Assembly: GCA_964059195.1 (NCBI GenBank)
Contig: CAXKWD010000002.1
Location: forward strand, 168,646,559-168,710,558
Direction of reading: 5' to 3'
DNA: 64,000 nucleotides
Source of the DNA: Ectobius pallidus
Lineage: Eukaryota > Arthropoda > Insecta > Blattodea > Ectobiidae
The position numbers and the translations under genes are program-made. Positions within the stretch are counted from its first letter, which is position 1, and each line of letters starts with the position of its first letter. The notes below the pieces were generated by a model that saw only the letters and a list, made by a program, of their open reading frames with translations, was not told the DNA's origin and searched no databases. Shown one piece after another: positions 1 through 62,383 of the stretch.

Positions 1-55
1 TCCTGGGATCGACTCAACCTGGAGTAAATGCGACCGTTGCCTAAGGCTGTTAACC

Positions 56-116: not shown

Positions 117-653
117 CAGACGCAGTTGGAAATGTAGAGAAGCGTTGTTTTATTCCTTCAAGTATTTTTTTATAATTATATTTCACATACAGTTTTTCCG
201 TAAGATGTCTATTTATCTAAAAAATAGCCCTGAGGTCATCTCAGCCTAGGTTTGCCGATTAGCGTTTAATATAATTTTTACTTTGGTCCTATGGTAAAGG
301 CGGCCGGTGCGTAAAACTCATGCTGGGGTCTTTAGAGGGGATATATTATGATAATAATTACAGGATTTTATAATGTCGATACCGAAAGCCAGTGAATGTT
401 TAATCACATGCGTGCAGAGATTTTGCTTAGGTAGCAGTTGTATCATCTCGCCCTCCATGCATGTTATCTCTCTTACTATGCAGCGGTAATATAACGCTGT
501 ACGCTTATCGCTATCTTACAACGTCATTCATTGAGACTTCCTTTTAAATCCCAACTCTAACATATTATAAAGTCGCAGGCCAGTACTTTTAAATTTTAAA
601 TCCTATTCATAGCACATGTCTTATGTATTATTAGTCAACAGTATTTTTATTGC
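116..653. other. Left flank of the palindromic element, repeat-derived
   Basis: No gene is seen. Positions 339-425 are a diverged direct copy of 723-813 inside the left arm (both start GGGATATATTATGATAATAA). Positions 175-207 resemble, inverted, 13249-13281 on the other side of the element. So both flanks contain related repeat pieces, but not in the same order as the arms. Confidence 0.5.
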
Positions 654-1457
654 GGTATATTAAAAACTTATATTGTAATATTCCATCGCTGAGTGGTTCT
701 GAGTTCGATTCAAAGTCAGTAAAGGGATATATTATGATAATAATTACAGGTTTTTTTAATGCCGATACAGAAAGCCAGTGAATGTTTTTAATCACTTGCA
801 TACAGAGATTTGTAACACGTATTTAGAATCTCAACTCGCAACACTAGTTTCGCTGACGTAAGAGTTCACAGTATCTTCACTCGCAACAAGATGCTTCCGT
901 ATACATAATTCTTATCGCTATCGCGCGTGTTAATGCAGTCTTTTTAATTCTTCATTCATAACAGTGATATTTCATTTATCCATTTAAACTTTAAATCCTA
1001 GTTTATTAATCTACCTAGTGCTTTTAGTAATTTATTGCTTTGAAGCGGACTTGGTCATAATAGTCCTCACGGTTGCTCCTGGCGAAAATAGAAAAATGGT
1101 TTTCAATGCAAGGTTTTAGCGAGAGATTTGAAATTCTAATACGTAATTCTTTAGAAAATGGCTTCTAGCGCGTAATTTAAAATTATGAACAAATGACATT
1201 GTGGCAGATTTGTAGTATATTTTTACGAGAGAGTTCATTTCACAATAGGTATCATATTACCAAAGTCAGCATTTTATTTTCTACGTTTTATCACACAATC
1301 CCCTCGGATCATATTAATTCTCTGTTCATACGAACTAAAACATAATGCTACGACAGCATTTTTTTCCAAACGTATCTTCAAACAAAAGTTTAATTTTTTT
1401 ATTCATATACAAGAAATGATATAATGAGATGATGTTGATTCAGCAAATTCCTTATTT

Positions 1458-1467
1458 ATGACGTCAT
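1458..1467. promoter_or_regulatory. CRE-like palindrome upstream of the left gene
   Basis: ATGACGTCAT is a perfect CREB/ATF-type palindrome about 130 bases upstream of the TATA box. The mirror copy lies near 12365-12374. Function is inferred from the consensus only. Confidence 0.4.
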
Positions 1468-1590
1468 CATTACAAACAGGCTCATGCATGCTTCAAGGTC
1501 TTACACGGCACGTGTGCGGAAGTTAAGTAGGTCACACATCTCATATTACAGATCAAGTCTCTACACGTCTCGGCTAGCTCACAGCGTCAG

Positions 1591-1610
1591 TATATAAGGC
1601 GATGACGTCA
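1591..1610 (+). promoter_or_regulatory. TATA box plus CRE of the left polymerase gene
   Basis: TATATAAG at 1591-1598 is a canonical TATA box, followed at 1603-1610 by TGACGTCA. Transcription would be expected to start about 25-30 bases downstream, near 1620. That makes the in-frame ATG at 1602 lie upstream of the start site, so the ATG at 1656 is the better initiation codon. Confidence 0.6.
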
Positions 1611-1655
1611 CCGCATCACATTCACTTCTTAGCAGACCGTCGCCGACTACACATC

Positions 1656-2078
1656 ATGGAGAGCTCGTCCGCCGCCGTCTTCCAATGTGGTGAGTGTACC
1701 TCCGCATTTAAACATAGAAGGAATTTACAAAGACACATCAACCAACATCATAAGAAAAGTGACTACAAGTGTGAAATATGCGGTGTGATATTTACACGAA
1801 GTGATGTGCTAAAAAGACATGCACGAGAAAATCATGCCGTTACTGCCTTCACCTGTAACATTTGTCACTCCAACTTCTCATCGGCACGAAACTTAAGTAG
1901 ACACCAGGAGAGGAGCCACCACCCAGCAACAAGGGACGCTGCCAAACGCATTGGGCTGTATCACCAGGCAGGCCACTTGTACTTTCCTGCTGAAGCCGGG
2001 ACATCATGCAACGGAGGCGAGACCTCGAGGATTCCCGTGCACGGTGGTGGTCAAAGCCAGGAACCCGCCCGATTACAG
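1656..2078 (+). CDS. Exon 1: three C2H2 zinc fingers (left copy)
   Basis: First coding exon of the zinc-finger/polymerase gene. It encodes 141 residues with three classic C2H2 fingers: Cys11/Cys14-His27/His31, Cys39/Cys42-His55/His60 and Cys67/Cys70-His83/His88, each with twelve residues between the second Cys and first His. The rest is a low-complexity Gly/Ser/Pro linker. ATG 1656 is preferred over 1602 because of the TATA box at 1591. The exon ends at CAG before GTACGT (2079), a strong donor, at phase 0. Such fingers usually bind specific DNA; a role in recognising the element's own ends or promoter is an inference. Without splicing the frame runs only to 2120, which argues that splicing is used. 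Confidence 0.8.
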
Positions 2079-2172
2079 GTACGTTTTATTACATTATCAA
2101 ACATGTTTTTCAAAATGTAAATACATACATCATAGTAGCGGTGTAACACATGATTACATTTTATTTTTATAG

Positions 2173-2948
2173 GTCGGAGCGAGGAGCTACAATGCGGACG
2201 ATGCCAGACAAAACAACACCGATCGCTTCCATCTACCAGCACATAGCGGAGACGTAGGAGCAGGCGCATCCCGTCCAACGATGCTGGGAGAGGAGGCCAC
2301 GCCTTCAGGTGTGCGTTTACAGTTATGTGATGATATTATTATTGTACAAGACATACAACTTATTTCTCTCTCATAGTACAACGAATAAAACTCAATATTT
2401 TTTTTTCCTTTTTACTGAATGGATAAAAAACAAGACAGAAAACTTAATTTTGTTTATTTTTTCCACGTTACTGAATGCGAGACTTTATATTTCAATGATT
2501 AAACAAGACCGAAAACTTATTTCTTTTATCATAAAACTCAATATAATTTTTTATATTAGTACAGAACGGTTAAAATAAGACATCAAACTTAATTTCTTTT
2601 TCCATAAATCTTAATATTTTATTTTTCTATTGTTACAGAATACAAGTCCAGTGAGTGGGGATACCATGCGGACATCATCCGTCCAGCCAAGCACCAGCCA
2701 ACCTGGGCCTTCAGGTTTACATTTGCAGGTATGTTATTATTATGATTATTGTGCAAGATATCAAACTTATTTTTTATCACGAAACGTAATATTATTTTTT
2801 ATATTAGTACAGAACGGCTAATAACAAGACATTAAACTTAATTTTTTCTCATAAATCTTATTATTTTATATTTCTATTGTTACAGAATCCAGAGTCCATC
2901 CGTCAGTCGCGACCTAGCGTCACCATGCTTATGCGTGATATTCCACAG
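2173..2948 (+). CDS. Exons 2-4: linker of the zinc-finger/polymerase gene (left copy)
   Basis: Three small open exons join exon 1 to exon 5 in frame: 2173-2322 (50 codons), 2639-2728 (30 codons) and 2886-2948 (21 codons). Each follows a T-rich tract and an AG acceptor (TTTATAG, TGTTACAG, TGTTACAG), and all introns are phase 0. Exons 2 and 3 both end in PSG-x-x-LQ. Introns 2 and 3 and their acceptors are clearly related (2549-2638 versus 2800-2885), so exons 3 and 4 look like products of a local exon-intron duplication. The donor after exon 2 reads CAG/TTATGT in this copy but CAG/GTATGT in the right copy, so normal splicing of exon 2 is probably impaired here. Skipping exon 2 would keep the frame. 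The encoded linker is rich in Ser, Pro and Gly and has no recognisable domain. Confidence 0.7.
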
Positions 2949-3038
2949 GTATATACAGTGAAAAATCTTAGTATTCTATTATTCCATTCGCTTACGAAGG
3001 TCTAGATTGCTAATGTTGATGTTTTTTCGTTATTACAG

Positions 3039-6000
3039 AAACAAGATGGAATGGATCGCGGCGCTGTGACCAACTCACCATCGTCGGAAACATGTGAGTT
3101 TTTACCCATCGAAACAGCGTTCAGGTCACGACTGGCAACATACGCAGCAAACAATTTTCCAGCCGGCGATATGGAATCTGTCCTGTCATCATGCCAATAT
3201 AAAATTGAAAACCTTCTGTCAGAGTCACTGTCAAAATTTGCATCAATTAAATTTAATATTTTCGTAGAGTGTGAATTTAAACATCTAGAGCTAAATTCTT
3301 GTTTGAGAAATTTTAAGACAAAAAATGATTCGTTGCTCAAAACATCAAATATTCACGAAGTAGTATCTAGACACATTTCTAAAATTCAGTCTGAGATGCA
3401 GGACAGTGAATTACGAGGGTCTGGGTGGTTTTACAATAAAATCCACAAAATTGAAATTCGCGTCAACGAATACATGCCATTTGCAGGGCATGGGCATATG
3501 ATCCTCCCTGATAAATTCCAACATCTGAAGTCATTAATTAATATTGATAATGATGATGAATTTTGTTTCAAGTATTGTGTATTATCAAAATTTATTGAGT
3601 CTGATAAGGATTTATGGACCAGTTATCTTACCAGACCAGAGTTGGATATCAAGTACGATTGGAACTGTGTAAAATTCCCCGTTTCGATTCACGACATCGA
3701 AAAGTTTTCAAAAAGAAACAATATTTCGATCAATGTTTTCGGCCTCGAGGAAAAGCGGGATGGGAAAAATATTTCTCATTTCGTGTTTCCTATCAAAATT
3801 GTTGAAAAGGAACTAGCTGATCATAGAGATCTTTTGTTTGTGTGTAACGAGGAAAATTCACATTATATCGTCATTTCAGATTTCGATGCTTTTGTAAGAC
3901 CTTTTGTAACATCACACAAAACTCAAGTCAGAGTGTGCAAACGGTGTTTTACACATTTCCATGCGTACGAAGGTAAGTCTGCCGACGTAAGGTTGAAAGA
4001 GCATTTGGCGTTATGCAACTCGTTCAGCCCAGTCAGGTGCGAAATTCCTAAAAATCCCGAAGTCGTATTCAACAAGCCCGAATATTCGCAAAAGATTAGA
4101 TTTGTCATCTATGCGGATTTCGAGTGTTTGCTGGAACCGATATCAGGATGTTTGGGAGATCCGCAGAAAAGCTGGACTACTCCTTATCAGAAGCATAATC
4201 CTTTTAGTTTTTGTTATTTCATCAAAGATGCTGAGGGCGCATATTCTCAATTGAGACTTTTTAGAGGGGAGGATGCCAGTGGCGAGTTTATGCGCTCGCT
4301 TGTCGCTGATGCTAAAGAAATTGATAAGATCTTGAACAGTGTAAATAAGCCCATGACCCCTCTGACAGAAGATGAAATTAGGGTATACAATAGCGCTACT
4401 ATTTGCCATATTTGTGGCGAGGGTAACTTTACCAATGTGAACTATAAAGTAAGGGACCATTGCCATGTTAGTGGTCGGTTCAGAGGAGCCGCCCACAGGA
4501 ATTGTAATTTGAATTATAGGAACCAGGCATTTGTCCCTATTGTATTGCATAACATGTCCAACTATGATGCTCATTTTATTGTGACAGAACTTGGATTCGA
4601 TCAGAATAGAATCAACGTCATATACAATACACAAGAAAAGTATGTGACATTTTCAAAATTTATTCCCTCCTCTTATTTGAAGAGGGGAGGTATGGAGTTA
4701 AGATTTATAGATTCGTTTCGGTTCATGGCAAGCAGCCTGGAAAAGCTAGCAATCAATCTACCTAAAGATAAATTTATAGAAACAGCAAAAGTATTTGGTG
4801 AAAACGCCGATTTGGTGTGTCGAAAGGGAGTGTTCCCCTACGACTACGTCACCTCTGTTGAAATTTTGAAGGAGAAGAAATTGCCTCCCAAAGATGCATT
4901 TTACAATAGACTCGCGAATGAGAACGTCTCTGACCAAGACTACTCTCACGCGAGAAACGTTTGGAATTCTTTCTCGATCAGCTCATTAGGAGAATATTCA
5001 GACTTATATTTGAAATCTGATGTTTTGATTTTGACCGACGTCTTTGAAAACTTTAGACAGATGTGTTTTGAGACGTACGGAATGGATTGTTTGTACTATA
5101 GTACTGTTCCAGGCTTTGCTTACTCAGCTATGTTGAAGTTCACAAAGGTAAAATTACCGCTTTTGACCGATATGGATATGATTCAAATGTTTGAACGCGG
5201 GATAAGAGGTGGAATTTGTCAGTGTGTAACAAGGCACGCTGTTGCAAACAATAACATGTGTGATGAATATGATGAGTCTACAAAAAAATCTTTTCTTTAT
5301 TATGTCGATGCCAATAACCTTTATGGTTATGCGATGTCGCAGGCATTGCCGTCAGGCGAGTTCCGCTGGCTCGACAAACATGAGATAACATCCTTTGACA
5401 TCATGTCCATACCGGTCAATTCTAAATTAGGATATGTGCTTGAGGTAGACATTGAGTATCCAGACCATCTTCACGATGCTCATTCTGATCTCCCTTTCTG
5501 TGCGGAGATGAAATTTCCTCCAGGCAGCAAAAACAAAAAATTATTAACCACGTTGGAACCAAAAGAAAAATATGTCGTTCATCACACGGTACTTAAGCAA
5601 GCCGTGCAACACGGACTGAGGTTATCCAAGATCCATAGAGTTATCGAATTTCAACAAAGCTGCTGGTTGAAACCCTACATTGACTATAACACGGCCAAGC
5701 GTAGAGCTGCAGCCAACAACTTTGAGAAAGACTTTTTTAAATTGATGAATAACGCCGTTTTTGGCAAGACTATGGAAAATGTGAGGAAACGTATAAATTT
5801 TCGGCTTGTATCAAGTGAGAAGGAAATTCGAAAGCTGGTAGCCAAAAGTAACTTTATGGATAGGACAATTTATAACGAAAACTTGGTTGGTGTCCATCTA
5901 GCAAAAACTAGTTTAGTGTTTGATAAGGCCATCTATGTTGGCATGTCTATTTTGGAAATTTCGAAAACTAGGATGTATGAGTTCCATTATGATACCATGA

Positions 6001-6554
6001 AAAATTTTTATAAAGAAGGATTGAAATTGTGCTACATGGACACGGACAGCTTCGTCTATAGAATTGAAACGGATATCCTCTTCCGTGATATGATGCATTT
6101 CCGAGATGAGCTGGATACTAGCGTCTACCCACCTGAACATCCCTTGTATTCAAACGAAAACAAGGCGGTGGTTGGGAAATTCAAGGACGAAGGAGCTGGT
6201 CACTCCATAAAGGCGTTCGTAGGTCTGCGAGCGAAAATGTACGCCATAAAATTCAATGATATGGTCATCAAAAAATTGAAAGGCGTTAAGAAAAACGTCA
6301 TTGACAAAGATGTCAACTTTGAAGATTATTTTGGTTGTCTACAGAGCGGACAGTCAACATTCTCGTTAAACAGATCCATCAGATCATACAAGCATAGTGT
6401 ATTTTCGATTTCTATGAATAAATTGACTTTATCCGGCAACGACGACAAACGTCATATTATGGAAAATTGTGTGGACACTCTCGCTCACGGACACTACAAA
6501 ATCAGGGAGGAGGAGTATGATGATGAACCTCCTACTAAAAAATGTAAATTGTAA
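3039..6554 (+). CDS. Exon 5: protein-primed family-B DNA polymerase with EndoVII-like domain (left copy)
   Basis: Last exon, 1171 codons, continuing the frame from exon 4; ATG 3051 starts an internal frame of 1167 residues used for numbering. About 155-235 is an N-terminal region conserved in arthropod DNA_pol_B_2 proteins. A Cys/His finger lies at about 296-322. ExoI is Asp356/Glu358 (YADFEC), ExoII Asp506 (NMSNYD) and ExoIII Tyr653/Asp657. Between ExoI and ExoII lies a Cys452/Cys455...DHCH469-472...Cys485 cluster like recombination endonuclease VII. Polymerase motif A is D753-ANNLYG, motif B K897-LMNNAVFG, motif C D997-TD999, and KxY is K1062/Y1064. All catalytic residues are intact, so an active polymerase with proofreading is expected. 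Protein priming is inferred from the family; no terminal-protein region was resolved. Differences from the right copy: Ile1009/Asn, Phe1094/Val and one Lys/Asn near the C terminus. The nearest relatives would be arthropod and cnidarian mobile-element polymerases. Confidence 0.9.
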   Translation, partial: KQDGMDRGAVTNSPSSETCEFLPIETAFRSRLATYAANNFPAGDMESVLSSCQYKIENLLSESLSKFASIKFNIFVECEFKHLELNSCLRNFKTKNDSLLKTSNIHEVVSRHISKIQSEMQDSELRGSGWFYNKIHKIEIRVNEYMPFAGHGHMILPDKFQHLKSLINIDNDDEFCFKYCVLSKFIESDKDLWTSYLTRPELDIKYDWNCVKFPVSIHDIEKFSKRNNISINVFGLEEKRDGKNISHFVFPIKIVEKELADHRDLLFVCNEENSHYIVISDFDAFVRPFVTSHKTQVRVCKRCFTHFHAYEGKSADVRLKEHLALCNSFSPVRCEIPKNPEVVFNKPEYSQKIRFVIYADFECLLEPISGCLGDPQKSWTTPYQKHNPFSFCYFIKDAEGAYSQLRLFRGEDASGEFMRSLVADAKEIDKILNSVNKPMTPLTEDEIRVYNSATICHICGEGNFTNVNYKVRDHCHVSGRFRGAAHRNCNLNYRNQAFVPIVLHNMSNYDAHFIVTELGFDQNRINVIYNTQEKYVTFSKFIPSSYLKRGGMELRFIDSFRFMASSLEKLAINLPKDKFIETAKVFGENADLVCRKGVFPYDYVTSVEILKEKKLPPKDAFYNRLANENVSDQDYSHARNVWNSFSISSLGEYSDLYLKSDVLILTDVFENFRQMCFETYGMDCLYYSTVPGFAYSAMLKFTKVKLPLLTDMDMIQMFERGIRGGICQCVTRHAVANNNMCDEYDESTKKSFLYYVDANNLYGYAMSQALPSGEFRWLDKHEITSFDIMSIPVNSKLGYVLEVDIEYPDHLHDAHSDLPFCAEMKFPPGSKNKKLLTTLEPKEKYVVHHTVLKQAVQHGLRLSKIHRVIEFQQSCWLKPYIDYNTAKRRAAANNFEKDFFKLMNNAVFGKTMENVRKRINFRLVSSEKEIRKLVAKSNFMDRTIYNENLVGVHLAKTSLVFDKAIYVGMSILEISKTRMYEFHYDTMKNFYKEGLKLCYMDTDSFVYRIETDILFRDMMHFRDELDTSVYPPEHPLYSNENKAVVGKFKDEGAGHSIKAFVGLRAKMYAIKFNDMVIKKLKGVKKNVIDKDVNFEDYFGCLQSGQSTFSLNRSIRSYKHSVFSISMNKLTLSGNDDKRHIMENCVDTLAHGHYKIREEEYDDEPPTKKCKL

Positions 6555-6597
6555 AAATGTATATTTGTTTATAGACTTTCATAGACTTTGAAAATTC

Positions 6598-6822
6598 TAA
6601 GTTAGGTTAGGTAGGTTATGTTGGGTTAGGTTATGTTAGGTTAGGTTAGGTTATGTTATGTTAGGTTAGGTTAGCAGGATGATATTTTAAAATTATTTCT
6701 AGAAACATTGATAAAATGTGCCAAGGAACTTAGCCTTTCTATCAATGTAGAAATGATTTTAAAATATCCTGCTAACCTAACCTAAGCTAACCTAACCTAT
6801 CCTATCCTATCCTAACCTAACC
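6598..6822. repeat. Hairpin with TTAGG and CCTAA telomere-type arms
   Basis: Positions 6598-6674 are about fifteen degenerate TTAGG units (with TTATG and TTGGG variants). Positions 6773-6822 are CCTAA and CCTAT units in inverted orientation. Between them 6669-6712 pairs with 6740-6777 (TTAGCAGGAT... and ...ATCCTGCTAA), leaving a loop of about 27 bases. TTAGG is the ancestral insect telomere unit, but non-telomeric TTAGG runs are also common in insects. Confidence 0.8.
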
Positions 6823-7149
6823 AAAGCTGTGATAAAATATGTCTCACACTATAAGTTGAATTATGAATAATGGGTGATGGATAGAATATGAAGAAAAGAT
6901 ACAAACAAATCTTCATGTTTTTTATTTTCCATACGTACGTGTCTTAATCAGATAGAATATTCTTAGTGATGACTTATGAAATTTTAGAGTATGCAAACCT
7001 TAGCCATCTGTTTTATAGTTTCTCGTTATAATATGTATCACATCATTCCAAATCCTTAAGCAGATATGACTATAATGGTGATGTTGTTGTTCTTGTTCTG
7101 GTTCTTGTGGTAAATACATAAGATCAGTTCTTTAAGATTTATACCGAGG

Positions 7150-7265
7150 ATTGGGCCAAAAACGAGAATTATACAGAGAAATAAACCGAGAACGAAATAT
7201 ACAGAGAAATAGACCTGAAACGAGAACTACACGAGAACGAAACGAGACGAGAACTAAACGAGAAC
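7150..7265. repeat. GAGAACGA minisatellite
   Basis: Repeated short units of the type CGAGAACGAAA, ACGAGAACTA and CAGAGAAATA are packed into about 115 bases just before the right arm. No similar array exists next to the left arm, so it is part of the asymmetric spacer. Confidence 0.6.
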
Positions 7266-7278
7266 GAAATATACAATT

Positions 7279-10200
7279 TTACAAGTTACATTTTTTAGTA
7301 GGAGGTTCATCATCATACTCCTCCTCCCTGATTTTGTAGTGTCCGTGAGCGAGAGTGTCCACACAATTTTCCATAATATGACGTTTGTCGTCGTTGCCGG
7401 ATAAAGTCAATTTATTCATAGAAATCGAAAATACACTATGCTTGTATGATCTGATGGATCTGTTTAACGAGAATGTTGACTGTCCGCTCTGTAGACAACC
7501 AACATAATCTTCAAAGTTGACATCTTTGTCAATGACGTTTTTCTTAACGCCTTTCAATTTTTTGATGACCATATCATTGAATTTTATGGCGTACATTTTC
7601 GCTCGCAGACCTACGAACGCCTTTATGGAGTGACCAGCTCCTTCGTCCTTGAATTTCCCGACCACCGCCTTGTTTTCGTTTGAATACAAGGGATGTTCAG
7701 GTGGGTAGACGCTAGTATCCAGCTCATCTCGGAAATGCATCATATCACGGAAGAGGTTATCCGTTTCAATTCTATAGACGAAGCTGTCCGTGTCCATGTA
7801 GCACAATTTCAATCCTTCTTTATAAAAATTTTTCATGGTATCATAATGGAACTCATACATCCTAGTTTTCGAAATTTCCAAAATAGACATGCCAACATAG
7901 ATGGCCTTATCAAACACTAAACTAGTTTTTGCTAGATGGACACCAACCAAGTTTTCGTTATAAATTGTCCTATCCATAAAGTTACTTTTGGCTACCAGCT
8001 TTCGAATTTCCTTCTCACTTGATACAAGCCGAAAATTTATACGTTTCCTCACATTTTCCATAGTCTTGCCAAAAACGGCGTTATTCATCAATTTAAAAAA
8101 GTCTTTCTCAAAGTTGTTGGCTGCAGCTCTACGCTTGGCCGTGTTATAGTCAATGTAGGGTTTCAACCAGCAGCTTTGTTGAAATTCGATAACTCTATGG
8201 ATCTTGGATAACCTCAGTCCGTGTTGCACGGCTTGCTTAAGTACCGTGTGATGAACGACATATTTTTCTTTTGGTTCCAAAGTGGTTAATAATTTTTTGT
8301 TTTTGCTGCCTGGAGGAAATTTCATCTCCGCACAGAAAGGGAGATCAGAATGAGCATCGTGAAGATGGTCTGGATACTCAATGTCTACCTCAAGCACATA
8401 TCCTAATTTAGAATTGACCGGTATGGACATGATGTCAAAGGATGTTATCTCATGTTTGTCGAGCCAGCGGAACTCGCCTGACGGCAATGCCTGCGACATC
8501 GCATAACCATAAAGGTTATTGGCATCGACATAATAAAGAAAAGATTTTTTTGTAGACTCATCATATTCATCACACATGTTATTGTTTGCAACTGCGTGCC
8601 TTGTTACACACTGACAAATTCCACCTCTTATCCCGCGTTCAAACATTTGAATCATATCCATATCGGTCAAAAGCGGTAATTTTACCTTTGTGAACTTCAA
8701 CATAGCTGAGTAAGCAAAGCCTGGAACAGTACTATAGTACAAACAATCCATTCCGTACGTCTCAAAACACATCTGTCTAAAGTTTTCAAAGACGTCGGTC
8801 AAAATCAAAACATCAGATTTCAAATATAAGTCTGAATATTCTCCTAATGAGCTGATCGAGAAAGAATTCCAAACGTTTCTCGCGTGAGAGTAGTCTTGGT
8901 CAGAGACGTTCTCATTCGCGAGTCTATTGTAAAATGCATCTTTGGGAGGCAATTTCTTCTCCTTCAAAATTTCAACAGAGGTGACGTAGTCGTAGGGGAA
9001 CACTCCCTTTCGACACACCAAATCGGCGTTTTCACCAAATACTTTTGCTGTTTCTATAAATTTATCTTTAGGTAGATTGATTGCTAGCTTTTCCAGGCTG
9101 CTTGCCATGAACCGAAACGAATCTATAAATCTTAACTCCATACCTCCCCTCTTCAAATAAGAGGAGGGAATAAATTTTGAAAATGTCACATACTTTTCTT
9201 GTGTATTGTATATGACGTTGATTCTATTCTGATCGAATCCAAGTTCTGTCACAATAAAATGAGCATCATAGTTGGACATGTTATGCAATACAATAGGGAC
9301 AAATGCCTGGTTCCTATAATTCAAATTACAATTCCTGTGGGCGGCTCCTCTGAACCGACCACTAACATGGCAATGATCCCTTACTTTATAGTTCACATTG
9401 GTAAAGTTACCCTCGCCACAAATATGGCAAATAGTAGCGCTATTGTATACCCTAATTTCATCTTCTGTCAGAGGGGTCATGGGCTTATTTACACTGTTCA
9501 AGATCTTATCAATTTCTTTAGCATCAGCGACAAGCGAGCGCATAAACTCGCCACTGGCATCCTCCCCTCTAAAAAGTCTCAATTGAGAATATGCGCCCTC
9601 AGCATCTTTGATGAAATAACAAAAACTAAAAGGATTATGCTTCTGATAAGGAGTAGTCCAGCTTTTCTGCGGATCTCCCAAACATCCTGATATCGGTTCC
9701 AGCAAACACTCGAAATCCGCATAGATGACAAATCTAATCTTTTGCGAATATTCGGGCTTGTTGAATACGACTTCGGGATTTTTAGGAATTTCGCACCTGA
9801 CTGGGCTGAACGAGTTGCATAACGCCAAATGCTCTTTCAACCTTACGTCGGCAGACTTACCTTCGTACGCATGGAAATGTGTAAAACACCGTTTGCACAC
9901 TCTGACTTGAGTTTTGTGTGATGTTACAAAAGGTCTTACAAAAGCATCGAAATCTGAAATGACGATATAATGTGAATTTTCCTCGTTACACACAAACAAA
10001 AGATCTCTATGATCAGCTAGTTCCTTTTCAACAATTTTGATAGGAAACACGAAATGAGAAATATTTTTCCCATCCCGCTTTTCCTCGAGGCCGAAAACAT
10101 TGATCGAAATATTGTTTCTTTTTGAAAACTTTTCGATGTCGTGAATCGAAACGGGGAATTTTACACAGTTCCAATCGTACTTGATATCCAACTCTGGTCT

Positions 10201-10794
10201 GGTAAGATAACTGGTCCATAAATCCTTATCAGACTCAATAAATTTTGATAATACACAATACTTGAAACAAAATTCATCATCATTATCAATATTAATTAAT
10301 GACTTCAGATGTTGGAATTTATCAGGGAGGATCATATGCCCATGCCCTGCAAATGGCATGTATTCGTTGACGCGAATTTCAATTTTGTGGATTTTATTGT
10401 AAAACCACCCAGACCCTCGTAATTCACTGTCCTGCATCTCAGACTGAATTTTAGAAATGTGTCTAGATACTACTTCGTGAATATTTGATGTTTTGAGCAA
10501 CGAATCATTTTTTGTCTTAAAATTTCTCAAACAAGAATTTAGCTCTAGATGTTTAAATTCACACTCTACGAAAATATTAAATTTAATTGATGCAAATTTT
10601 GACAGTGACTCTGAGAGAAGGTTTTCAATTTTATATTGGCATGATGACAGGACAGATTCCATATCGCCGGCTGGAAAATTGTTTGCTGCGTATGTTGCCA
10701 GTCGTGACCTGAACGCTGTTTCGATGGGTAAAAACTCACATGTTTCCGACGATGGTGAGTTGGTCACAGCGCCGCGATCCATTCCATCTTGTTT
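7279..10794 (-). CDS. Exon 5: protein-primed family-B DNA polymerase with EndoVII-like domain (right copy)
   Basis: Mirror copy of 3039-6554, also fully open from its internal ATG (10782) to the stop at 7279. All motifs named for the left copy are conserved: YADFEC, NMSNYD, the DHCH/Cys cluster, ANNLYG, LMNNAVFG, MDTDS and the KMY triplet. I counted three amino-acid differences and five silent ones against the left copy across 3.5 kb. Retention of both reading frames with no stop or frameshift suggests recent duplication, gene conversion between arms, or selection. This copy is preceded by a full set of canonical splice sites, so it is the better candidate for a functional gene. Confidence 0.9.
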   Translation of the reverse strand, partial: KQDGMDRGAVTNSPSSETCEFLPIETAFRSRLATYAANNFPAGDMESVLSSCQYKIENLLSESLSKFASIKFNIFVECEFKHLELNSCLRNFKTKNDSLLKTSNIHEVVSRHISKIQSEMQDSELRGSGWFYNKIHKIEIRVNEYMPFAGHGHMILPDKFQHLKSLINIDNDDEFCFKYCVLSKFIESDKDLWTSYLTRPELDIKYDWNCVKFPVSIHDIEKFSKRNNISINVFGLEEKRDGKNISHFVFPIKIVEKELADHRDLLFVCNEENSHYIVISDFDAFVRPFVTSHKTQVRVCKRCFTHFHAYEGKSADVRLKEHLALCNSFSPVRCEIPKNPEVVFNKPEYSQKIRFVIYADFECLLEPISGCLGDPQKSWTTPYQKHNPFSFCYFIKDAEGAYSQLRLFRGEDASGEFMRSLVADAKEIDKILNSVNKPMTPLTEDEIRVYNSATICHICGEGNFTNVNYKVRDHCHVSGRFRGAAHRNCNLNYRNQAFVPIVLHNMSNYDAHFIVTELGFDQNRINVIYNTQEKYVTFSKFIPSSYLKRGGMELRFIDSFRFMASSLEKLAINLPKDKFIETAKVFGENADLVCRKGVFPYDYVTSVEILKEKKLPPKDAFYNRLANENVSDQDYSHARNVWNSFSISSLGEYSDLYLKSDVLILTDVFENFRQMCFETYGMDCLYYSTVPGFAYSAMLKFTKVKLPLLTDMDMIQMFERGIRGGICQCVTRHAVANNNMCDEYDESTKKSFLYYVDANNLYGYAMSQALPSGEFRWLDKHEITSFDIMSIPVNSKLGYVLEVDIEYPDHLHDAHSDLPFCAEMKFPPGSKNKKLLTTLEPKEKYVVHHTVLKQAVQHGLRLSKIHRVIEFQQSCWLKPYIDYNTAKRRAAANNFEKDFFKLMNNAVFGKTMENVRKRINFRLVSSEKEIRKLVAKSNFMDRTIYNENLVGVHLAKTSLVFDKAIYVGMSILEISKTRMYEFHYDTMKNFYKEGLKLCYMDTDSFVYRIETDNLFRDMMHFRDELDTSVYPPEHPLYSNENKAVVGKFKDEGAGHSIKAFVGLRAKMYAIKFNDMVIKKLKGVKKNVIDKDVNFEDYVGCLQSGQSTFSLNRSIRSYKHSVFSISMNKLTLSGNDDKRHIMENCVDTLAHGHYKIREEEYDDEPPTKKCNL

Positions 10795-10884
10795 CTGTAA
10801 TAACGAAAAAACATCAACATTAGCAATCTAGACCTTCGTAAGCGAATGGAATAATAAAATACTAAGATTTTTCACTGTATATAC

Positions 10885-11659
10885 CTGTGGAATATCACGC
10901 ATAAGCATGGTGACGCTAGGTCGCGACTGACGGATGGACTCTGGATTCTGTAACAATAGAAATATAAAATAATAAGATTTATGAGAAAAAATTAAGTTTA
11001 ATGTCTTGTTATTAGCCGTTCTGTACTAATATAAAAAATAATATTACGTTTCGTGATAAAAAATAAGTTTGATATCTTGCACAATAATCATAATAATAAC
11101 ATACCTGCAAATGTAAACCTGAAGGCCCAGGTTGGCTGGTGCTTGGCTGGACGGATGATGTCCGCATGGTATCCCCACTCACTGGACTTGTATTCTGTAA
11201 CAATAGAAAAATAAAATATTAAGATTTATGGAAAAAGAAATTAAGTTTGATGTCTTATTTTAACCGTTCTGTACTAATATAAAAAATTATATTGAGTTTT
11301 ATGATAAAAGAAATAAGTTTTCGGTCTTGTTTAATCATCGAAATATAAAGTCTCGCATTCAGTAACGTGGAAAAAATAAACAAAATTAAGTTTTCTGTCT
11401 TGTTTTTTATCCATTCAGTAAAAAGGAAAAAAAATATTGAGTTTTATTCGTTGTACTATGAGAGAGAAATAAGTTGTATGTCTTGTACAATAATAATATC
11501 ATCACATACCTGTAAACGCACACCTGAAGGCGTGGCCTCCTCTCCCAGCATCGTTGGACGGGATGCGCCTGCTCCTACGTCTCCGCTATGTGCTGGTAGA
11601 TGGAAGCGATCGGTGTTGTTTTGTCTGGCATCGTCCGCATTGTAGCTCCTCGCTCCGAC
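10885..11659 (-). CDS. Exons 2-4: linker of the zinc-finger/polymerase gene (right copy)
   Basis: Exon 2 is 11510-11659, exon 3 11105-11194 and exon 4 10885-10947, all phase 0 with AG acceptors. The exon 2 donor reads CAG/GTATGT here, the site that is changed in the left copy. Sequence and layout are otherwise as in 2173-2948. No domain is recognisable in the Ser/Pro/Gly-rich linker. The exon 3/4 and intron 2/3 resemblance is present here too, so that duplication predates the palindrome. Confidence 0.7.
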
Positions 11660-11753
11660 CTATAAAAATAAAATGTAATCATGTGTTACACCGCTACTAT
11701 GATGTATGTATTTACATTTTGAAAAACATGTTTGATAATGTAATAAAACGTAC

Positions 11754-12176
11754 CTGTAATCGGGCGGGTTCCTGGCTTTGACCACCACCGTGCACGGGAA
11801 TCCTCGAGGTCTCGCCTCCGTTGCATGATGTCCCGGCTTCAGCAGGAAAGTACAAGTGGCCTGCCTGGTGATACAGCCCAATGCGTTTGGCAGCGTCCCT
11901 TGTTGCTGGGTGGTGGCTCCTCTCCTGGTGTCTACTTAAGTTTCGTGCCGATGAGAAGTTGGAGTGACAAATGTTACAGGTGAAGGCAGTAACGGCATGA
12001 TTTTCTCGTGCATGTCTTTTTAGCACATCACTTCGTGTAAATATCACACCGCATATTTCACACTTGTAGTCACTTTTCTTATGATGTTGGTTGATGTGTC
12101 TTTGTAAATTCCTTCTATGTTTAAATGCGGAGGTACACTCACCACATTGGAAGACGGCGGCGGACGAGCTCTCCAT
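11754..12176 (-). CDS. Exon 1: three C2H2 zinc fingers (right copy)
   Basis: Mirror copy of 1656-2078 with an identical predicted peptide of 141 residues. Start codon at 12176-12174, donor GTACGT directly after 11754. The three C2H2 fingers keep all twelve metal-binding residues. TATA box TATATAAG lies upstream at 12241-12234. With exons 2-5 on this strand it forms a 1413-residue zinc-finger/polymerase fusion whose splice sites are all canonical. Confidence 0.8.
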
Positions 12177-12221
12177 GATGTGTAGTCGGCGACGGTCTGC
12201 TAAGAAGTGAATGTGATGCGG

Positions 12222-12241
12222 TGACGTCATCGCCTTATATA
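12222..12241 (-). promoter_or_regulatory. TATA box plus CRE of the right polymerase gene
   Basis: Mirror of 1591-1610: TATATAAG at 12241-12234 and TGACGTCA at 12229-12222, read on the minus strand. The two genes therefore have the same promoter and are transcribed toward each other. Confidence 0.6.
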
Positions 12242-13185
12242 CTGACGCTGTGAGCTAGCCGAGACGTGTAGAGACTTGATCTGTAATATGAGATGTGTGA
12301 CCTACTTAACTTCCGCACACGTGCCGTGTAAGACCTTGAAGCATGCATGAGCCTGTTTGTAATGATGACGTCATAAATAAAGAATTTGCTGAATCAACAT
12401 CATATCATTATATCATTTCTTGTATATGAATAAAAAAATTAAACTTTTGTTTGAAGATACGTTTGGAAAAAAATGCTGTCGTAGCATTATGTTTTAGTTC
12501 GTATGAACAGAGAATTAATATGATCCGAGGGGATTGTGTGATAAAACGTAGAAAATAAAATGCTGACTTTGGTAATATGATACCTATTGTGAAATGAACT
12601 CTCTCGTAAAAATATACTACAAATCTGCCACAATGTCATTTGTTCATAATTTTAAATTACGCGCTAGAAGCCATTTTCTAAAGAATTACGTATTAGAATT
12701 TCAAATCTCTCGCTAAAACCTTGCATTGAAAACCATTTTTCTATTTTCGCCAGGAGCAACCGTGAGGACTATTATGACCAAGTCCGCTTCAAAGCAATAA
12801 ATTACTAAAAGCACTAGGTAGATTAATAAACTAGGATTTAAAGTTTAAATGGATAAATGAAATATCACTGTTATGAATGAAGAATTAAAAAGACTGCATT
12901 AACACGCGCGATAGCGATAAGAATTATGTATACGGAAGCATCTTGTTGCGAGTGAAGATACTGTGAACTCTTACGTCAGCGAAACTAGTGTTGCGAGTTG
13001 AGATTCTAAATACGTGTTACAAATCTCTGTATGCAAGTGATTAAAAACATTCACTGGCTTTCTGTATCGGCATTAAAAAAACCTGTAATTATTATCATAA
13101 TATATCCCTTTACTGACTTTGAATCGAACTCAGAACCACTCAGCGATGGAATATTACAATATAAGTGTTTAATATACCTTAATAT

Positions 13186-13480
13186 ACAGCCTTAGGCAAC
13201 GGTCGCATTTACTCCAGGTTGAGTCGATCCCAGGACCATAGTGAAATAAACATCTTACGGAAAACTTGTATGGAGAAATATAATGATGACGTTGCATTTA
13301 CGCTTCGTGGGAAAACGGAATGAAATATGAAACCTACTACCGGTCACGTGGTCTAGCGCGCCGCCATCTTGGATGACGTCATTTATGGACTTTGAGCGAT
13401 GTGGACTTTGCCCCTGCTCCACCCAATGTTGCGGGACAGTATCGCGACTCCACCCTAGGAGTCGTCCCCAAAACCACACT
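13186..13480 (-). mobile_element. Repeat (SINE-like) abutting the right arm
   Basis: On the minus strand the stretch runs from about 13480 and ends with the tail GGTCCTGGGATCGACT at 13235-13220. Positions 13186-13235 are an inverted copy of 1-50, and 13249-13281 resembles 175-207 inverted. A CCAAGATGGCGGC-like box and a TGACGTCA lie at about 13365-13382. The open frame at 13255-13479 is probably a chance translation of this repeat. Confidence 0.45.
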
Positions 13481-13567
13481 ACTGATGATATTACAATAAT
13501 TATTTTATTCTTATTTATACTGTGTTATTTATTTATTTTTATTTAAGTGCTTAACTGAGTGTCCCTG

Positions 13568-14497
13568 CATTACGCCAGTCAACACCGTAACGCACGTAGA
13601 AATTAAATTTTCGCCAACTATGGTATAGCGGCATTACCTACGGCCTTAAGTTAATTGGGAAGAACGATGGCAACAATGTGGCAACCACAAAAATATTCCT
13701 TGTGTGATTGTAGGAAGCATAAGAGCAAAAAACCAGATTTTTCAGGAAAGTGCCTTAATTGTATGCCAACATCGTAACGTAGAAAAAAGTGTGATTTTGT
13801 GATTTTTATAAATATTTTTAGTCTAGCAGAGAATTTTTGGCTGTATTTGAAGATAAAGCATGTGATAAATCGTCTTTTTTTTCAGTCTTAACTTCGAAAA
13901 CTTATGAACAAAAAAAATGTCCACCACCGTAACGGTCAACTCCGTCACGAAGAAATTCGTTACGGTGTTGATCACTGTTACAGTGGTGACTTTATTGGCT
14001 TGCATATGTTTAATTTAATTTTAATTTAGTTTATTAATTGTATTTACCACATTATGTGAATACATTATCGAAAACATGTCCACATCTTGAAATGAATGTC
14101 CACACCATAACGCAAGTGTCCACACCGTAACGCAGTCTCCACCCCGTAATAATAAGTAAAATGGCAATAGTTAGCACTAATTTTTAAATGCTTTTTCTTA
14201 ATGAGGAGGCATTTATGCACTGTATCCTTAATAAGCTTAGGATATGAAAATAAATATTTTACATTAAAAAGTCTGACGATAGTAACAAAATTTAGCATTA
14301 AAAATCTCGATTCTGTATTCTGTACTAAAAGTTTTAATCTTTTTGTCCATTATAGTAAATATTTGAGATAAAATTGATTCAAGGTGAATCGCAAGCCAAT
14401 GACCTATAGAAACAATAAATAAAAATGCTTTAATATTTCAAATTGTTAATATTAGGACCGCAAAACGCTGCGTTACGGAGTTGACTGATATTTGCAC
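13568..14497. repeat. Cluster of CCGTAACG motifs with inverted ends, possible DNA transposon
   Basis: About ten copies of a motif close to TCAACACCGTAACGC occur in both orientations, near 13578, 13768, 13920, 13936, 13957, 13971, 14098, 14119, 14138 and 14469. The outer two are inverted: CAGTCAACACCGTAACGC on the left, and the reverse complement of GCGTTACGGAGTTGACTG on the right. Subterminal repeats and inverted ends suggest a non-autonomous DNA transposon, but no target duplication was found. No coding potential is seen; apparent frames are translations of the motif. Confidence 0.5.
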
Positions 14498-18448: not shown

Positions 18449-18645
18449 TTCCAGTTCGATTTGGACGGAACTCACTATGAAGGGGTTTCCTGGGCCAGGG
18501 AACTCGAATATGGGGTCTTTTTCCCCGGCGGCGCTTTTTAATCGTGGAATGTACTCTAAACCCGGTTTTGTAGCTTTAATTATGTTGCTCTTAATTTTTA
18601 ATTTCTGAATTAACTACCGCGGGCGAAGCTGCGGGCACCTGCTAA
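18449..18645 (+). mobile_element. Helitron 3' end fragment
   Basis: Matches the second half of the Helitron units at 20289-24030 (TCGATTTGGACGGAACTCAC...), ending in the hairpin CGCGGGCGAAGCTGCGGGC and CTAA at 18642-18645, followed by T. The 5' half is missing. Confidence 0.7.
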
Positions 18646-19274
18646 TGAGAGTATAAATTATAACAGAAAAAAATCATAAATATAAGTTACATTTACGAAA
18701 TAATATCTTCTAAAGGAATCTACAAACATCAATGTTCAACAAAAAACACATTTCATTATTATTTTCCAGCAGGCATTATAATAAATTATTCTTAACACAA
18801 ATTATATGTCGCCAGAAGCTTTCCAGACAAGTAGGCCTATAGTGTCGAATAATTAAGAACGGGCCTATGCATTTTCTGAACGTATTAGGTTTACTGAAAA
18901 ACAATAAATTCTGCTTTACTAGTAAAATAATTGGCAGAAGACAAGTGAATGCCATGGACTGGATTTCTGCAGAGATGTTTGGGCGTGGAAGCAGCATGTG
19001 CCTTGTTTTCACGCGGATATCCCATGGGACCCTCTCCTAATGAACTCCGATACCATCCCGATGCTCTAGATTTTAGTATTGCTGTTCCACCACCGGAAGG
19101 TCGTCCACGAGAGAGACGCTACAGATACAACCCATTTATACTCAAGCTGTATACATAACCACACTACAAATGAAGATAAAAATTTGTTAATTTAAAGCTG
19201 CTTAATAAAAAAATTAATAGTCCCACAACAATGATTTACATTATTACAGAGGATACAATATAAATGTCTAAATA
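18646..19274. other. No recognised gene
   Basis: An open frame of 69 codons at 18949-19158 ends with an Arg-rich stretch; nothing known matches it. The base composition around 18950-19140 is richer in GC than its neighbours, so a decayed exon or transposon fragment is possible. Confidence 0.3.
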
Positions 19275-20001
19275 TCTATAACAATAACAGGAAGTGTTTG
19301 TCTGTTTGTCTGTCTATCTGTGCACGATGTTCAGCAAATCTACTACACATAGAGATCTGAAATTTTTAACACAGATAGACTGAGGGTGGCCAAATGCACC
19401 TCGCAGCCGGATTTTTAATTTTCGCTTTCATTCCCGAGTTATGAATGAAAAACTGGCAAAAAAAAAAAACGTGATTTCTTAGCTGTCGTCGAAGCATCAG
19501 TTTTCGGTAATACATTTCAACTGTCAAATCAATTGCAGGTGGCTTTGCCCTTTTTTGTCATAACTCAGAAATATAAGCATCGCGATTTTTTCAATATATC
19601 GCATTGAATTATCGATCGCTTCGATTTTGTGAGCTCACCCTGGTCGATTCGTTTGTTTATAATGTAAAGGCAAGAAGACATCTGAAATTTTCAACATAGA
19701 CGGAAGAAGGATAATGAATGTAGACCTAAATGGGTAAACATTGATCGATTTGGACGGGACTCACTATGCAGGTTTTTTTTTTCTGGGCCAGCGAAATCGA
19801 ATTTGAGGTTGTCTTTCCCAAGCTACGCTTTCTAATCGTGGAATGCACTCCAAAGACGGATTTTTAGCTGTTTCATTAATTATTAATCGTTTAGTTTAGG
19901 CCTATGAGTGTTTCGCGTGTAATATAATGTTTTAATTATTTTGCTCTTAATTTATTATTTTCGAATTAATTATCGTGGGCGAAGCCGCGAGCACCTGCTG
20001 A
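19275..20001 (+). mobile_element. Non-autonomous Helitron
   Basis: Starts with TCTATAACAATAACAGG at 19275 and ends with the hairpin GTGGGCGAAGCCGCGAGC and CTGA (19998-20001). The flanking bases are A (19274) and T (20002), the host AT dinucleotide used by Helitrons. There is no Rep/helicase coding region. It is about 75-80 percent like the array at 20289-24030 by eye. Confidence 0.8.
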
Positions 20002-20040
20002 TAGTGAATAAATCAAACAAATACAAGAGATACGTCCTGG

Positions 20041-20140
20041 TAAAGTTGGTTCAGGCAATGCGTTACAAGACAGCGAGTTCGAACCCAAGACTAAACTTTC
20101 TGATGACACTACGGCCCTGTGGTCGAATTAGCTTCTAACA
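20041..20140 (+). mobile_element. tRNA-derived SINE
   Basis: A box-A-like TGGTTCAGGCAATGCG is followed by box B GAGTTCGAACCC and a tail (ACGGCCCTGTGGTCGA...) like the tail at 37030-37110. The tRNA part is too diverged to be a functional tRNA. Confidence 0.6.
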
Positions 20141-20288
20141 GAAATGAATATAAGGGAATTATCCTGGGCATAAGGCTACTTGTTGACTATTTAAGCCCCG
20201 AATTTTATGTTTTTCATGTGGGAGAATATACTCTGTGCTAAATACAATAATTAGTAGTATACGATATTAGTAGGGCTAACAATAACAA

Positions 20289-23200
20289 TCTATATTAATA
20301 AAAGGAAGTGTCTGTCCTCCGTCTGTCCTTCTGTCTGTCCGCGATGCCCAGCGAAATCTACTGAACGCAGAGATCTGAAATTTTATACATAGGCGGACTA
20401 AAGGGTCGGAATGTGCACCTCGAAGCCGGAATTTTAATTTTCGCTTTAGTTCGTGAGTTATGAGTGAAAAACGGGCAGAAAACGTGTATTTATTCCGTTT
20501 TCGAAGCATGAGTTTTCAGTAATACAAATCAATTACACTAGGCTTTGGCTATTTTTGTCAAACCTTCGACATAAAAGCATCGCGATCTCTTGAATGTTGT
20601 AGCTCACGCTGGTCGATTCATTTGTTTTTAATGTCAAGGCACGCAAACATAATGTGAAATTTTCAACCTACACCGAAGAGGATTATTATTATTATTATTA
20701 TAGGGATAATCAATATTAGCCTAAATATGGTCAAACGTTGTTCGATTTGGACGAAACTCACTATACAGGGGTTTTCTGGGCCAAGGAACTCGAATCTGAG
20801 GTCGCTTTTACCAGGTGACGCTATCTAATCGTGATATGTAGTCCACACGATTTAGGTGTTAATATAATGATTTAACTATTATGCACTTAATTTTTAATTT
20901 TTGGAATAATTATCGCGGGGGAAGCCGCGGGCACATGTTATCTTATAATAATAAAAGGACGTGTTTTCTGTCTGTCCGCGATGCCCAGCGAAATCTACTG
21001 AACGCAGAGATCTGAAATTTTAAACATAGATGGACTGAAAGGTGGGCGAATGCACCTCGAAGCCGGATTTTTAATTTTAGCTTTCGTTCGCGAGTTATGA
21101 GTGAAAAACTGGCAGAAAACGTGATTTTAGCGCTGTCGAAGCATCAGATTTCAGTAATACATTTCAATGTCAAATCAATTGCAGTTGGCTTTGGCTATTT
21201 TTGTCATACTGTGGTAATAAAAGCATCGCGATCGCTAGAATGTTGTAAGCCCACGCTGGTCGATTCATTTGTTTAGAATGTCAAGGCCCGTAGACAAATG
21301 AAATTTTCAACCTACACGGAAGAGGGATAATCAACATAGACCTAAATATGGTTAAACATCGTTCGATTTGGACGAAACTCACTATACAGGGATTTTCTGG
21401 ACAAAGGAACTCGAATCTGAGGTCGCTTTTACCAGGCGGCGCTATCTAATCGTGACATGTAGTCCACGTGATTTAGGTGTTAATAAATATAATGATTTAA
21501 CTATTATGATCTTAATTTTTAATTCTTGAAATAATTATCGCGGGCGATCGCTTGATTTTGTAAGTCCATCCTGGACGATTCATTAGTTTAGAATATCAAG
21601 GCCCGAAGACATGTGAAATTTTCAACCTACACGGAAGAGGGATAATCAATATAGGCCTAAATATGGTCAAACATTGATTCGATTTGGACGAAACTCACTA
21701 TACAGGGGTATTCTGGGCCAAGGAACTCGAATTTGACGTCGCTTTTACCAGGTGACGCTATCTAATCGTGGTATGTAGTCCACGTGATTTAGGTGTTAAT
21801 ATAATGATTTAACTATTATGCACTTAATTTTTAATTTTTGGAATAATTATCGCGGGGGAAGCCGCGGGCACATGTTATCTTATAATAATAAAAGGACGTG
21901 TTTTCTGTCTGTCCGCGATGCCCAGCGAAATCTACTGAACGCAGAGATCTGAAATTTTAAACATAGATGGACTGAAAGGTGGGCGAATGCACCTCGAAGC
22001 CGGATTTTTAATTTTAGCTTTCGTTCGCGAGTTATGAGTGAAAAACTGGCAGAAAACGTGATTTTAGCGCTGTCGAAGCATCAGATTTCAGTAATACATT
22101 TCAATGTCAAATCAATTGCAGTTGGCTTTGGCTATTTTTGTCATACTGTGGTAATAAAAGCATCGCGATCGCTAGAATGTTGTAAGCCCACGCTGGTCGA
22201 TTCATTTGTTTAGAATGTCAAGGCCCGTAGACAAATGAAATTTTCAACCTACACGGAAGAGGGATAATCAACATAGACCTAAATATGGTTAAACATCGTT
22301 CGATTTGGACGAAACTCACTATACAGGGATTTTCTGGACAAAGGAACTCGAATCTGAGGTCGCTTTTACCAGGCGGCGCTATCTAATCGTGACATGTAGT
22401 CCACGTGATTTAGGTGTTAATAAATATAATGATTTAACTATTATGATCTTAATTTTTAATTCTTGAAATAATTATCGCGGGCGATCGCTTGATTTTGTAA
22501 GTCCATCCTGGACGATTCATTAGTTTAGAATATCAAGGCCCGAAGACATGTGAAATTTTCAACCTACACGGAAGAGGGATAATCAATATAGGCCTAAATA
22601 TGGTCAAACATTGATTCGATTTGGACGAAACTCACTATACAGGGGTATTCTGGGCCAAGGAACTCGAATTTGACGTCGCTTTTACCAGGTGACGCTATCT
22701 AATCGTGGTATGTAGTCCACGTGATTTAGGTGTTAATAAATATAATGATTTAACTATTATGCTCTTAATTTTTAATTTTTGAAATAATTATTTCGCCCGC
22801 GGGCACATGCTGTTTGTCTGTCTGTCCGCGATGCCCATCGAAATCTACTGAACGCAGAGATCTGAAATTTTAAAGATAGATGGACTGAAAGGTGGGCGAA
22901 TGCCCCTCGAAGCCGAATTTTTAATTTTAGCTTTCGTTCGCGAGTTATAAGTGAAAAACTGGCAGAAAACGTGATTTTAGCGCTGTCGAAGCATCAGATT
23001 TCAGTAATACATTTCAATGTCAAATCAATTGCAGTTAGCTTTGGCTATTTTTGTCATACCGTGGAAATAAAAGCATCGCGATCGCTTGAATGTTGTCGAT
23101 TCATTTGTTTAGAATGTCAAGGCCCGTAGACATGAAATTTTCAACCTACACGGAAGAGGGATAATCAACATAGACCTAAATATGGTTAAACATCGTTCGA

Positions 23201-24030
23201 TTTGGACGAAACTCACTATACAGGGATTTTCTGGGCCAAGGAACTCGAATCTGAGATCGCCTTTACCAGGTGACGCTATCTAATCGTGATATGTAGTCCA
23301 CGTGATTTAGGTGTTAATAAATATAATGATTTAACTAGGCCCTATTAGGGTTATGCTTTTAATTTTTAATTTTTTAAATAATTATCGCGGGCGAAGCCGC
23401 GGGCACATGCTATCTTAAAATAATAAAAGGACGTATTTGTCTGTCTGTCCACGATGCCCAGCGAAATCTACTGAACGCAGAGATCTGAAATTTTAAACAT
23501 AGATGGTCTGAAAGGTGGGCGAATGCGCATCGAAGCCGGATTTTTAATTTTAGCTTTCGTTCGCAAGTTGTGAGTGAAAAACTGGCAGAAAACGTGATTT
23601 TAGCGCTGTTGAAGCATCAGATTTCAGTAATACATTTCAATGTCAAATCAATTGCAGTTGGCTTTGGCTATTTTTGTCATACCGTGGTAATAAAAGCATC
23701 GCGATCGCTAGATTGTTGTAAGCCCACGCTGGTCGATTCATTTGTTTAGAATGTCAAGGCCCGTAGACATATGAAATTTTCAACCTACACGGAAGAGGGA
23801 TAGGCCTATATATGGTCAAACATTGTTCGATTTGGACGAAACTCACTGTACAGGGGTATTCTGGGCCAAGGAAATCGAATCTGAGGTCGCTTTTACCAGG
23901 CGACGCTATCTAATCGTGGTATGTAGTCCACGTGATTTAGGTGTTAATAAATATAATGATTTAACTATTATGCTCTTAATTTTTAATTTTTGAAATAATT
24001 ATCGCGGGCGAAGCCGCGGGCACATGCTAG
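20289..24030 (+). mobile_element. Tandem array of five non-autonomous Helitron units
   Basis: Units run head to tail: 20289-20940, 20941-21877, 21878-22810, 22811-23412 and 23413-24030. The first starts TCTATATTAATAAAAGG after host A (20288). The last ends with hairpin CGCGGGCGAAGCCGCGGGC and CTAG (24027-24030) before host T. Internal junctions join a TTA, CTA or similar end directly to TCTTATAATAATAAAAGG. One A/T target for the whole array suggests a single insertion of a multimer, as expected from rolling-circle transposition. No Rep/helicase frame is present. Confidence 0.8.
20941..22734 (+). repeat. 937-bp tandem duplication inside the Helitron array
   Basis: Positions 20941-21797 and 21878-22734 are essentially identical by eye, offset by exactly 937. 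The copies diverge at about 22735. Each unit contains an extra, second copy of the Helitron 3' half, joined through GCGATCGC (21545 and 22482). Confidence 0.85.
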
Positions 24031-27732: not shown

Positions 27733-27937
27733 TCAGGTTCGCGAGCGACCCCTGGTGATCCCGTAAGGGGATATTCTCAGCGTACTACCTACTTAAACCT
27801 AAGGACACACACACACCCAGTCCTGAACCCGGGAAAGGAATTTTTCACTACTGAAAAATCCCTGACCCCGCCGGGAATCGAACCCGGGCCGCCGGAGTGG
27901 AAGGCAGGCGCGCTACCGACTCACCCACACAACCGGC
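27733..27937 (-). mobile_element. tRNA-derived SINE inside the LINE
   Basis: The minus strand starts GGTTGTGTGGGTGAGTCGGT, has box A and a perfect box B (GGGTTCGATTCCC), then a body with a GTGTGTGTGTCC stretch. It sits between the conserved blocks of the decayed reverse transcriptase. The duplicated target is not clear. Confidence 0.75.
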
Positions 27938-62330: not shown

Positions 62331-62383
62331 CAATAGCAAAATCATCATAGGCAACCCCACGAGAGTTGAATTTATTAAGTCTA
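62331..62383 (-). repeat. Dispersed repeat R1, copy 3 part beyond the Helitron
   Basis: On the minus strand AGACTTAATAAATTCAACTC corresponds to the R1 block near 39510. It continues R1 copy 3 on the far side of the Helitron at 62384-63380. Confidence 0.5.

Follow-up and report, generated by a model that had tools for sequence, protein, structure and literature searches.

A palindromic zinc-finger/DNA polymerase locus of the Polinton/adintovirus lineage in Ectobius pallidus

How does the gene of a protein-primed-type DNA polymerase come to stand twice, in opposite orientations, within one long inverted repeat? The question is raised by a locus of the blattodean insect Ectobius pallidus, in a stretch of 64,000 nucleotides (contig CAXKWD010000002.1 of assembly GCA_964059195.1, positions 168,646,559 to 168,710,558; hereafter the window). 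An earlier note on this DNA had described bases 654–13178 as a palindromic, polymerase-only element with an intact spliced gene in each arm, and had supposed a tail-to-tail dimer of a linear replicon, formed by copying round a hairpin or by end fusion. As set out below, the arrangement is real and unusual, the polymerase lineage itself being already known. Titles and abstract openings among the literature matches listed describe no palindromic PolB-only element, which does not establish novelty in print.

The arms and their polymerase gene

The two arms (5913 bp on the left, 5912 bp on the right) form a 5.9-kb inverted repeat that is far beyond chance. Within the limits given in Table 1, which exclude two mismatches at 652–653, they differ by 15 substitutions (0.25%) and, within a T run, by an indel of one base, and are separated by a 700-bp spacer. 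Each arm is predicted to carry one gene of five exons, in phase 0 and without internal stops, according to a splice model drawn from the sequence alone. An exon encoding C2H2 zinc fingers is followed by three small exons and, after the fourth of the predicted phase-0 introns, by a 3.5-kb exon encoding the family B DNA polymerase (PolB). The fingers of the left arm match Pfam PF00096 in three stretches (E 8.5e-14), the zinc-finger open reading frame (ORF) of the right arm has the same translation, and the PolB exon is uninterrupted over 1171 residues in each arm. In the right arm, the donors and acceptors of all four predicted introns are canonical; in the left arm, the splice donor following exon 2 is lost, so that the claim of an intact spliced gene in each arm is not confirmed. 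Intron 3 and the first part of exon 4 repeat in tandem the last part of intron 2 and the first part of exon 3 (score 205; 50 shuffles gave no more than 51); these intron-exon stretches ahead of the PolB exon, duplicates of one another, lie at 2485–2926.

As judged from homology and predicted fold, the polymerase is of the protein-primed type of family B and of the Polinton/adintovirus lineage, in agreement with the earlier note, and its activity is a prediction only. The closest named relative is the PolB of a Ladona dragonfly adintovirus (45% identity over 97% of the query), and the structural matches in BFVD include near whole-length ones to adintovirus PolBs, with a bidensovirus PolB at rank 8. 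Strings fitting what we take to be motifs ExoI–III and A–C are found in the window PolB. Pfam gives only Endonuclease_7 (21.8 bits, below the cut-off of 23.6) and a weak FYVE match; DNA_pol_B_2 is not among the matches up to E 1, and is matched by one of the 22 members of our PolB alignment, the window PolB counted among them. Three endonuclease VII families and two weak unnamed families are matched in PHROGs, and none in NCBIfam. A sequence search of PDB gives three weak matches (best E 0.0012), the kinship to phi29 polymerase being visible by fold only. In IMG/VR, neither the window PolB nor the Ladona PolB has direct kin; a search with an alignment as the query gave two distant contigs (L001 and L002), and the L001 PolB refound its own contig. 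In L001 (17.4 kb), the stretch 6788–14170 carries a Pox_A32-type ATPase, a 38%-identical PolB and a convergent rve integrase, which shares 15 bases with the 3′ end of the PolB.

The view that no other element gene is visible was upheld for the proteins tested, within the window. Seven L001 and four L002 proteins (two PolB and nine non-PolB), used as tblastn queries with an E limit of 1, had no match outside PolB over the 64 kb; for the Ladona PolB-integrase fusion P0140, a single 24-residue match (E 7.6) came in addition to those with PolB. The integrase and ATPase queries of L001 have Pfam matches, whereas the four "capsid" queries are putative, their label having been guessed from gene order and size, and the three that were scanned have no Pfam match. 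Both contigs are of polinton-like viruses, more distant than adintoviruses, for which the Ladona fusion was the sole query; a single-sequence tblastn search would miss distant capsid genes, and a protease was not among the queries. To the right of the palindrome lie nine ORFs of at least 110 amino acids.

Between the arms, eight codons of the PolB exon differ, five of them synonymously and three nonsynonymously, which is a synonymous skew (binomial P 0.010) against the 80% nonsynonymous changes expected when every change is given equal weight. The three replaced residues were compared with those of 21 relatives in the PolB alignment. At residue 1013, D is found in 19 relatives and N in two, and of the arms the right has N and the left neither; at 1098, the V of the right arm occurs in 11 of the 21 and the F of the left arm in one; at 1170, where 14 relatives are gapped, the K of the left arm occurs in four of the other seven and the N of the right arm in none. 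The relatives' residues point to a change in the left copy at two of the three sites and in the right copy at one. Together with the lost donor, the left arm therefore looks like the decaying copy, and the right arm shows no such damage.

The centre and the outer borders

The spacer contains a 205-bp stretch with TTAGG-like ends that is 79.8% self-complementary, and the DNA fold of 6590–6835 has an energy of -59.1 kcal/mol (z -12.2), equalled in none of 200 shuffles. The TTAGG-like repeats stand head-to-head, as in a telomere fusion, but that candidate was rejected: because the stretch between them is largely self-complementary too, a hairpin resembling a miniature inverted-repeat transposable element (MITE) is likelier. 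No other stretch within the window has the 16-base GTTAGG-type motif, with up to two mismatches allowed.

At the other end of the spacer, a 17-bp sequence of the minisatellite array (7187–7203) recurs over the inner right junction at 7259–7275. The match consists of eight array bases and the 9-bp junction sequence, and it ends exactly where the nine bases of the left arm end; the arm itself ends 12 bp past the PolB stop codon. This recurrence may mark the place where a strand folded back, the spacer forming the loop. When the outer and inner 200 bases of an arm are compared in inverted orientation, the score (25) is equalled in 73 of 200 shuffles; a single arm therefore does not resemble a whole element bounded by terminal repeats of its own.

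The outer borders of the arms are not the ends of the element. Bases 1–50 are the reverse complement of 13186–13235 (50 of 50 bases), and the left flank 118–653 is collinear with 13354–12794 on the right side, with identity in 79.7% of the ungapped columns (369/463; 171 of the 634 columns are gaps) and a score of 336.5 against at most 198 in 50 shuffles. The firm part of this alignment starts at 172/13287 (score 72; 30 shuffles reached no more than 34). Because inverted identity resumes outside, up to the window edge, positions 654 and 13178 mark where about 600 bp interrupt the left side; they are ruled out as element ends by the identity of 1–50 and by the diverged copy at 118–653, and a reading of 654–13178 as a complete element is not supported. 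On the right side, homology extends beyond 13178 and reaches 13287 at least. The left continuation is to be sought beyond window base 1, and, with that side cut, the arms may belong to a larger Polinton. No target-site duplication is present at 654/13178 (the six outside bases are TATTGC and TTAATA), these borders not being true ends, and the element-end pattern had no match in IMG/VR.

Table 1. Features of the palindromic locus (positions in the window)
Feature	Position	Strand	Basis or remark
Outer continuation of left arm, about 600 bp apart from arm	1..50	+	100% reverse complement of 13186-13235
Diverged second copy of element's outer end, left flank	118..653	+	collinear alignment; 118-171 weak
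Left palindrome arm, uninterrupted part	654..6566	+	15 substitutions and one 1-base indel against right arm
TATA-like sequence, left arm, 65 bp ahead of ATG	1591..1598	+	function inferred
Exon 1, left arm, C2H2 zinc fingers	1656..2078	+	Pfam and splice prediction
Exon 2, left arm; next splice donor lost	2173..2322	+	splice prediction
Exon 3, left arm	2639..2728	+	splice prediction
Exon 4, left arm; start lies in tandem copy	2886..2948	+	splice prediction, shuffle test
Exon 5, left arm, predicted protein-primed family B DNA polymerase	3039..6554	+	homology, predicted fold
Centre, unique, 700 bp; loop in fold-back model	6567..7266	+	self-comparison
MITE-like hairpin, TTAGG-like ends, within centre	6621..6825	+	self-complementarity, DNA fold
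Minisatellite adjoining right arm	7160..7263	+	repeat search
Inner junction sequence, 9 bp, common to arm and spacer	7267..7275	+	sequence comparison
Right palindrome arm, uninterrupted part	7267..13178	-	self-comparison
Exon 5, right arm, predicted DNA polymerase	7279..10794	-	homology
Exon 4, right arm	10885..10947	-	splice prediction
Exon 3, right arm	11105..11194	-	splice prediction
Exon 2, right arm, canonical donor	11510..11659	-	splice prediction
Exon 1, right arm, C2H2 zinc fingers	11754..12176	-	translation same as left
Outer continuation of right arm	13186..13287	-	flank alignments

Origin of the palindrome

The explanation that we favour, and to which we give about an even chance, is that the locus derives from a Polinton/adintovirus-lineage element, a piece of which stands integrated in the chromosome and was made palindromic by fold-back copying. 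The piece would consist of the outer end of the element and the adjoining zinc-finger/PolB gene. A growing 3′ end in the spacer minisatellite, terminating in the 9-base sequence that is also found just past the PolB stop codon, would have paired with its complement at that site and then copied the arm back as far as its outer end; the 700-bp spacer, with the strong hairpin in it, would have remained as a loop. Protein-primed replication, as in adenovirus and phi29, displaces single strands, and a displaced strand could snap back and be copied to give one palindrome with a loop. The setting may have been the chromosome, or a free linear molecule, protein-primed and in the course of strand-displacement replication; this site, the copying step and its direction are what we infer. 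Afterwards, the left copy would have lost its splice donor, and a fragment of about 600 bp, whose last part is a diverged copy of the end of the element itself, would have come to split the left arm from its outer continuation. Of the dimer proposed earlier, the shape stands and the junction suits hairpin copying, but the status of a replicon is unsupported.

Several points weigh against fold-back copying. The spacer array may have grown from the arm end, which would make the nine shared bases a consequence and not a cause, and, with the outer limits of the duplication out of view, the locus may be a chromosomal inverted duplication. Moreover, the synonymous skew is more in keeping with two functional copies that replicate separately than with a single recent neutral duplication, although the numbers are small and come from one test. 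A chromosomal event apart from element replication, either repair template switching or two nearby inverted insertions with arms homogenised by gene conversion, is on balance unlikely. Short shared junction sequences are typical of repair template switching too, which gives the same junction as fold-back copying and differs from it in the position of the outer end, and the second, diverged end copy suggests that the element family landed here more than once. Two independent insertions, however, imply that an element also ends at the inner border, and the outer and inner 200 bases of the arm show no inverted resemblance; the stop of the arm just past the stop codon likewise counts against insertions, but not against template switching. 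Assemblies are known to go wrong at long, near-identical inverted repeats, and yet an assembly or chimeric-read artefact is very improbable, because 15 substitutions against one indel, with five of eight codon changes synonymous, are unlike the read noise of one folded molecule, and the two flanks are not simple mirror images.

The palindrome could also be a PolB-only symmetric linear replicon that replicates by protein priming and relies on full-length relatives for an integrase; its terminal inverted repeats would have grown to hold the whole replication gene, so that each end would encode its own copying enzyme. Such a replicon would fit the predicted protein-primed polymerase fold, the right-arm gene with no visible damage, the synonymous skew and the lack of relatives of the tested non-PolB proteins in the 64 kb beyond the one 24-residue match, and it would have a precedent in bidnaviruses, which are described as having a Polinton-derived PolB but no Polinton capsid genes (PMC4061559). 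It is nevertheless improbable: a single copy is seen and its ends are not located, no target-site duplication flanks 654/13178, and the left gene is broken at a splice site. The replicon suggested in the earlier note is not borne out.

Known relatives and neighbouring sequence

Symmetric adenovirus recombinants (SYREC), for which our literature search gave no match, are palindromes that arise from a protein-primed linear genome and have the same viral end on both sides. They are episomal cell-culture variants, whereas the locus described here is integrated and has the polymerase gene inside each arm.

With Polintons/Mavericks, among which insects fall in Polinton "group II" (PMC10328495), the locus shares a protein-primed-type PolB and the presence of inverted repeats, which in Polintons lie at the ends of the element. 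Intact vertebrate Mavericks measure 12.7–24.6 kb; their ORFs lack introns, their repeats are 46–1,447 bp long and their target-site duplications 6 bp (PMC8097293); here, in contrast, the inverted repeat is at least 5.9 kb long and a gene with four predicted introns lies inside it. Of the Polinton/Maverick gene set, the rve integrase, packaging ATPase and putative capsid queries had no tblastn match within the window, and, in comparison with the terminal repeats of Polintons, which are tipped AG...CT, an inverted repeat is present but its outer ends are not located.

The likeness to adintoviruses lies in the Ladona relative, the BFVD matches and the zinc fingers, zinc-finger genes occurring in some adintoviruses (PMC11071296). 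A complete Drosophila-associated adintovirus (14.6 kb) has PolB, integrase, capsid, protease and FtsK genes (PMC8363768), whereas the tested integrases, ATPases and putative capsid proteins have no relative in the window. The N-terminal OTU-like domain is a trait of Adintoviridae PolB that the window PolB may share, its BFVD matches to adintovirus PolBs being near whole-length. A hexon and a chromodomain integrase had no match in the window, the queries being from more distant contigs and one Ladona fusion protein, the capsids putative and the left side cut. For relatives of Polintons, replication is believed to be protein-primed and to pass through a single-stranded intermediate; the passages of the same paper on bidnaviruses mention no palindromic PolB duplication (PMC4061559).

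Elsewhere in the window, a satellite-like array occupies 18454–24043 (TRF period 316 at 21228–22791; related units are spaced 316–937 and more), and inverted copies of it lie at 62382–63351, 85–94% complementary among the 25 longest pairs listed. ARAGORN reports a tRNA-Gly (tcc) at 27863–27934, possibly a tRNA-derived repeat; the Rfam search gave no match at gathering score, there or elsewhere in the window. Two direct copies, at 39695–40089 and 44271–44721, share blocks of 86–139 bp at 93–96% and lie about 4.6 kb apart.

A palindrome with a readable fold-back junction where a protein-primed polymerase gene ends would preserve in a genome the trace of protein-primed copying through a single-stranded intermediate, and would illustrate how inverted repeats can come to enclose a gene. 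Were its copies mobile, it would be a minimal one-gene replicon.
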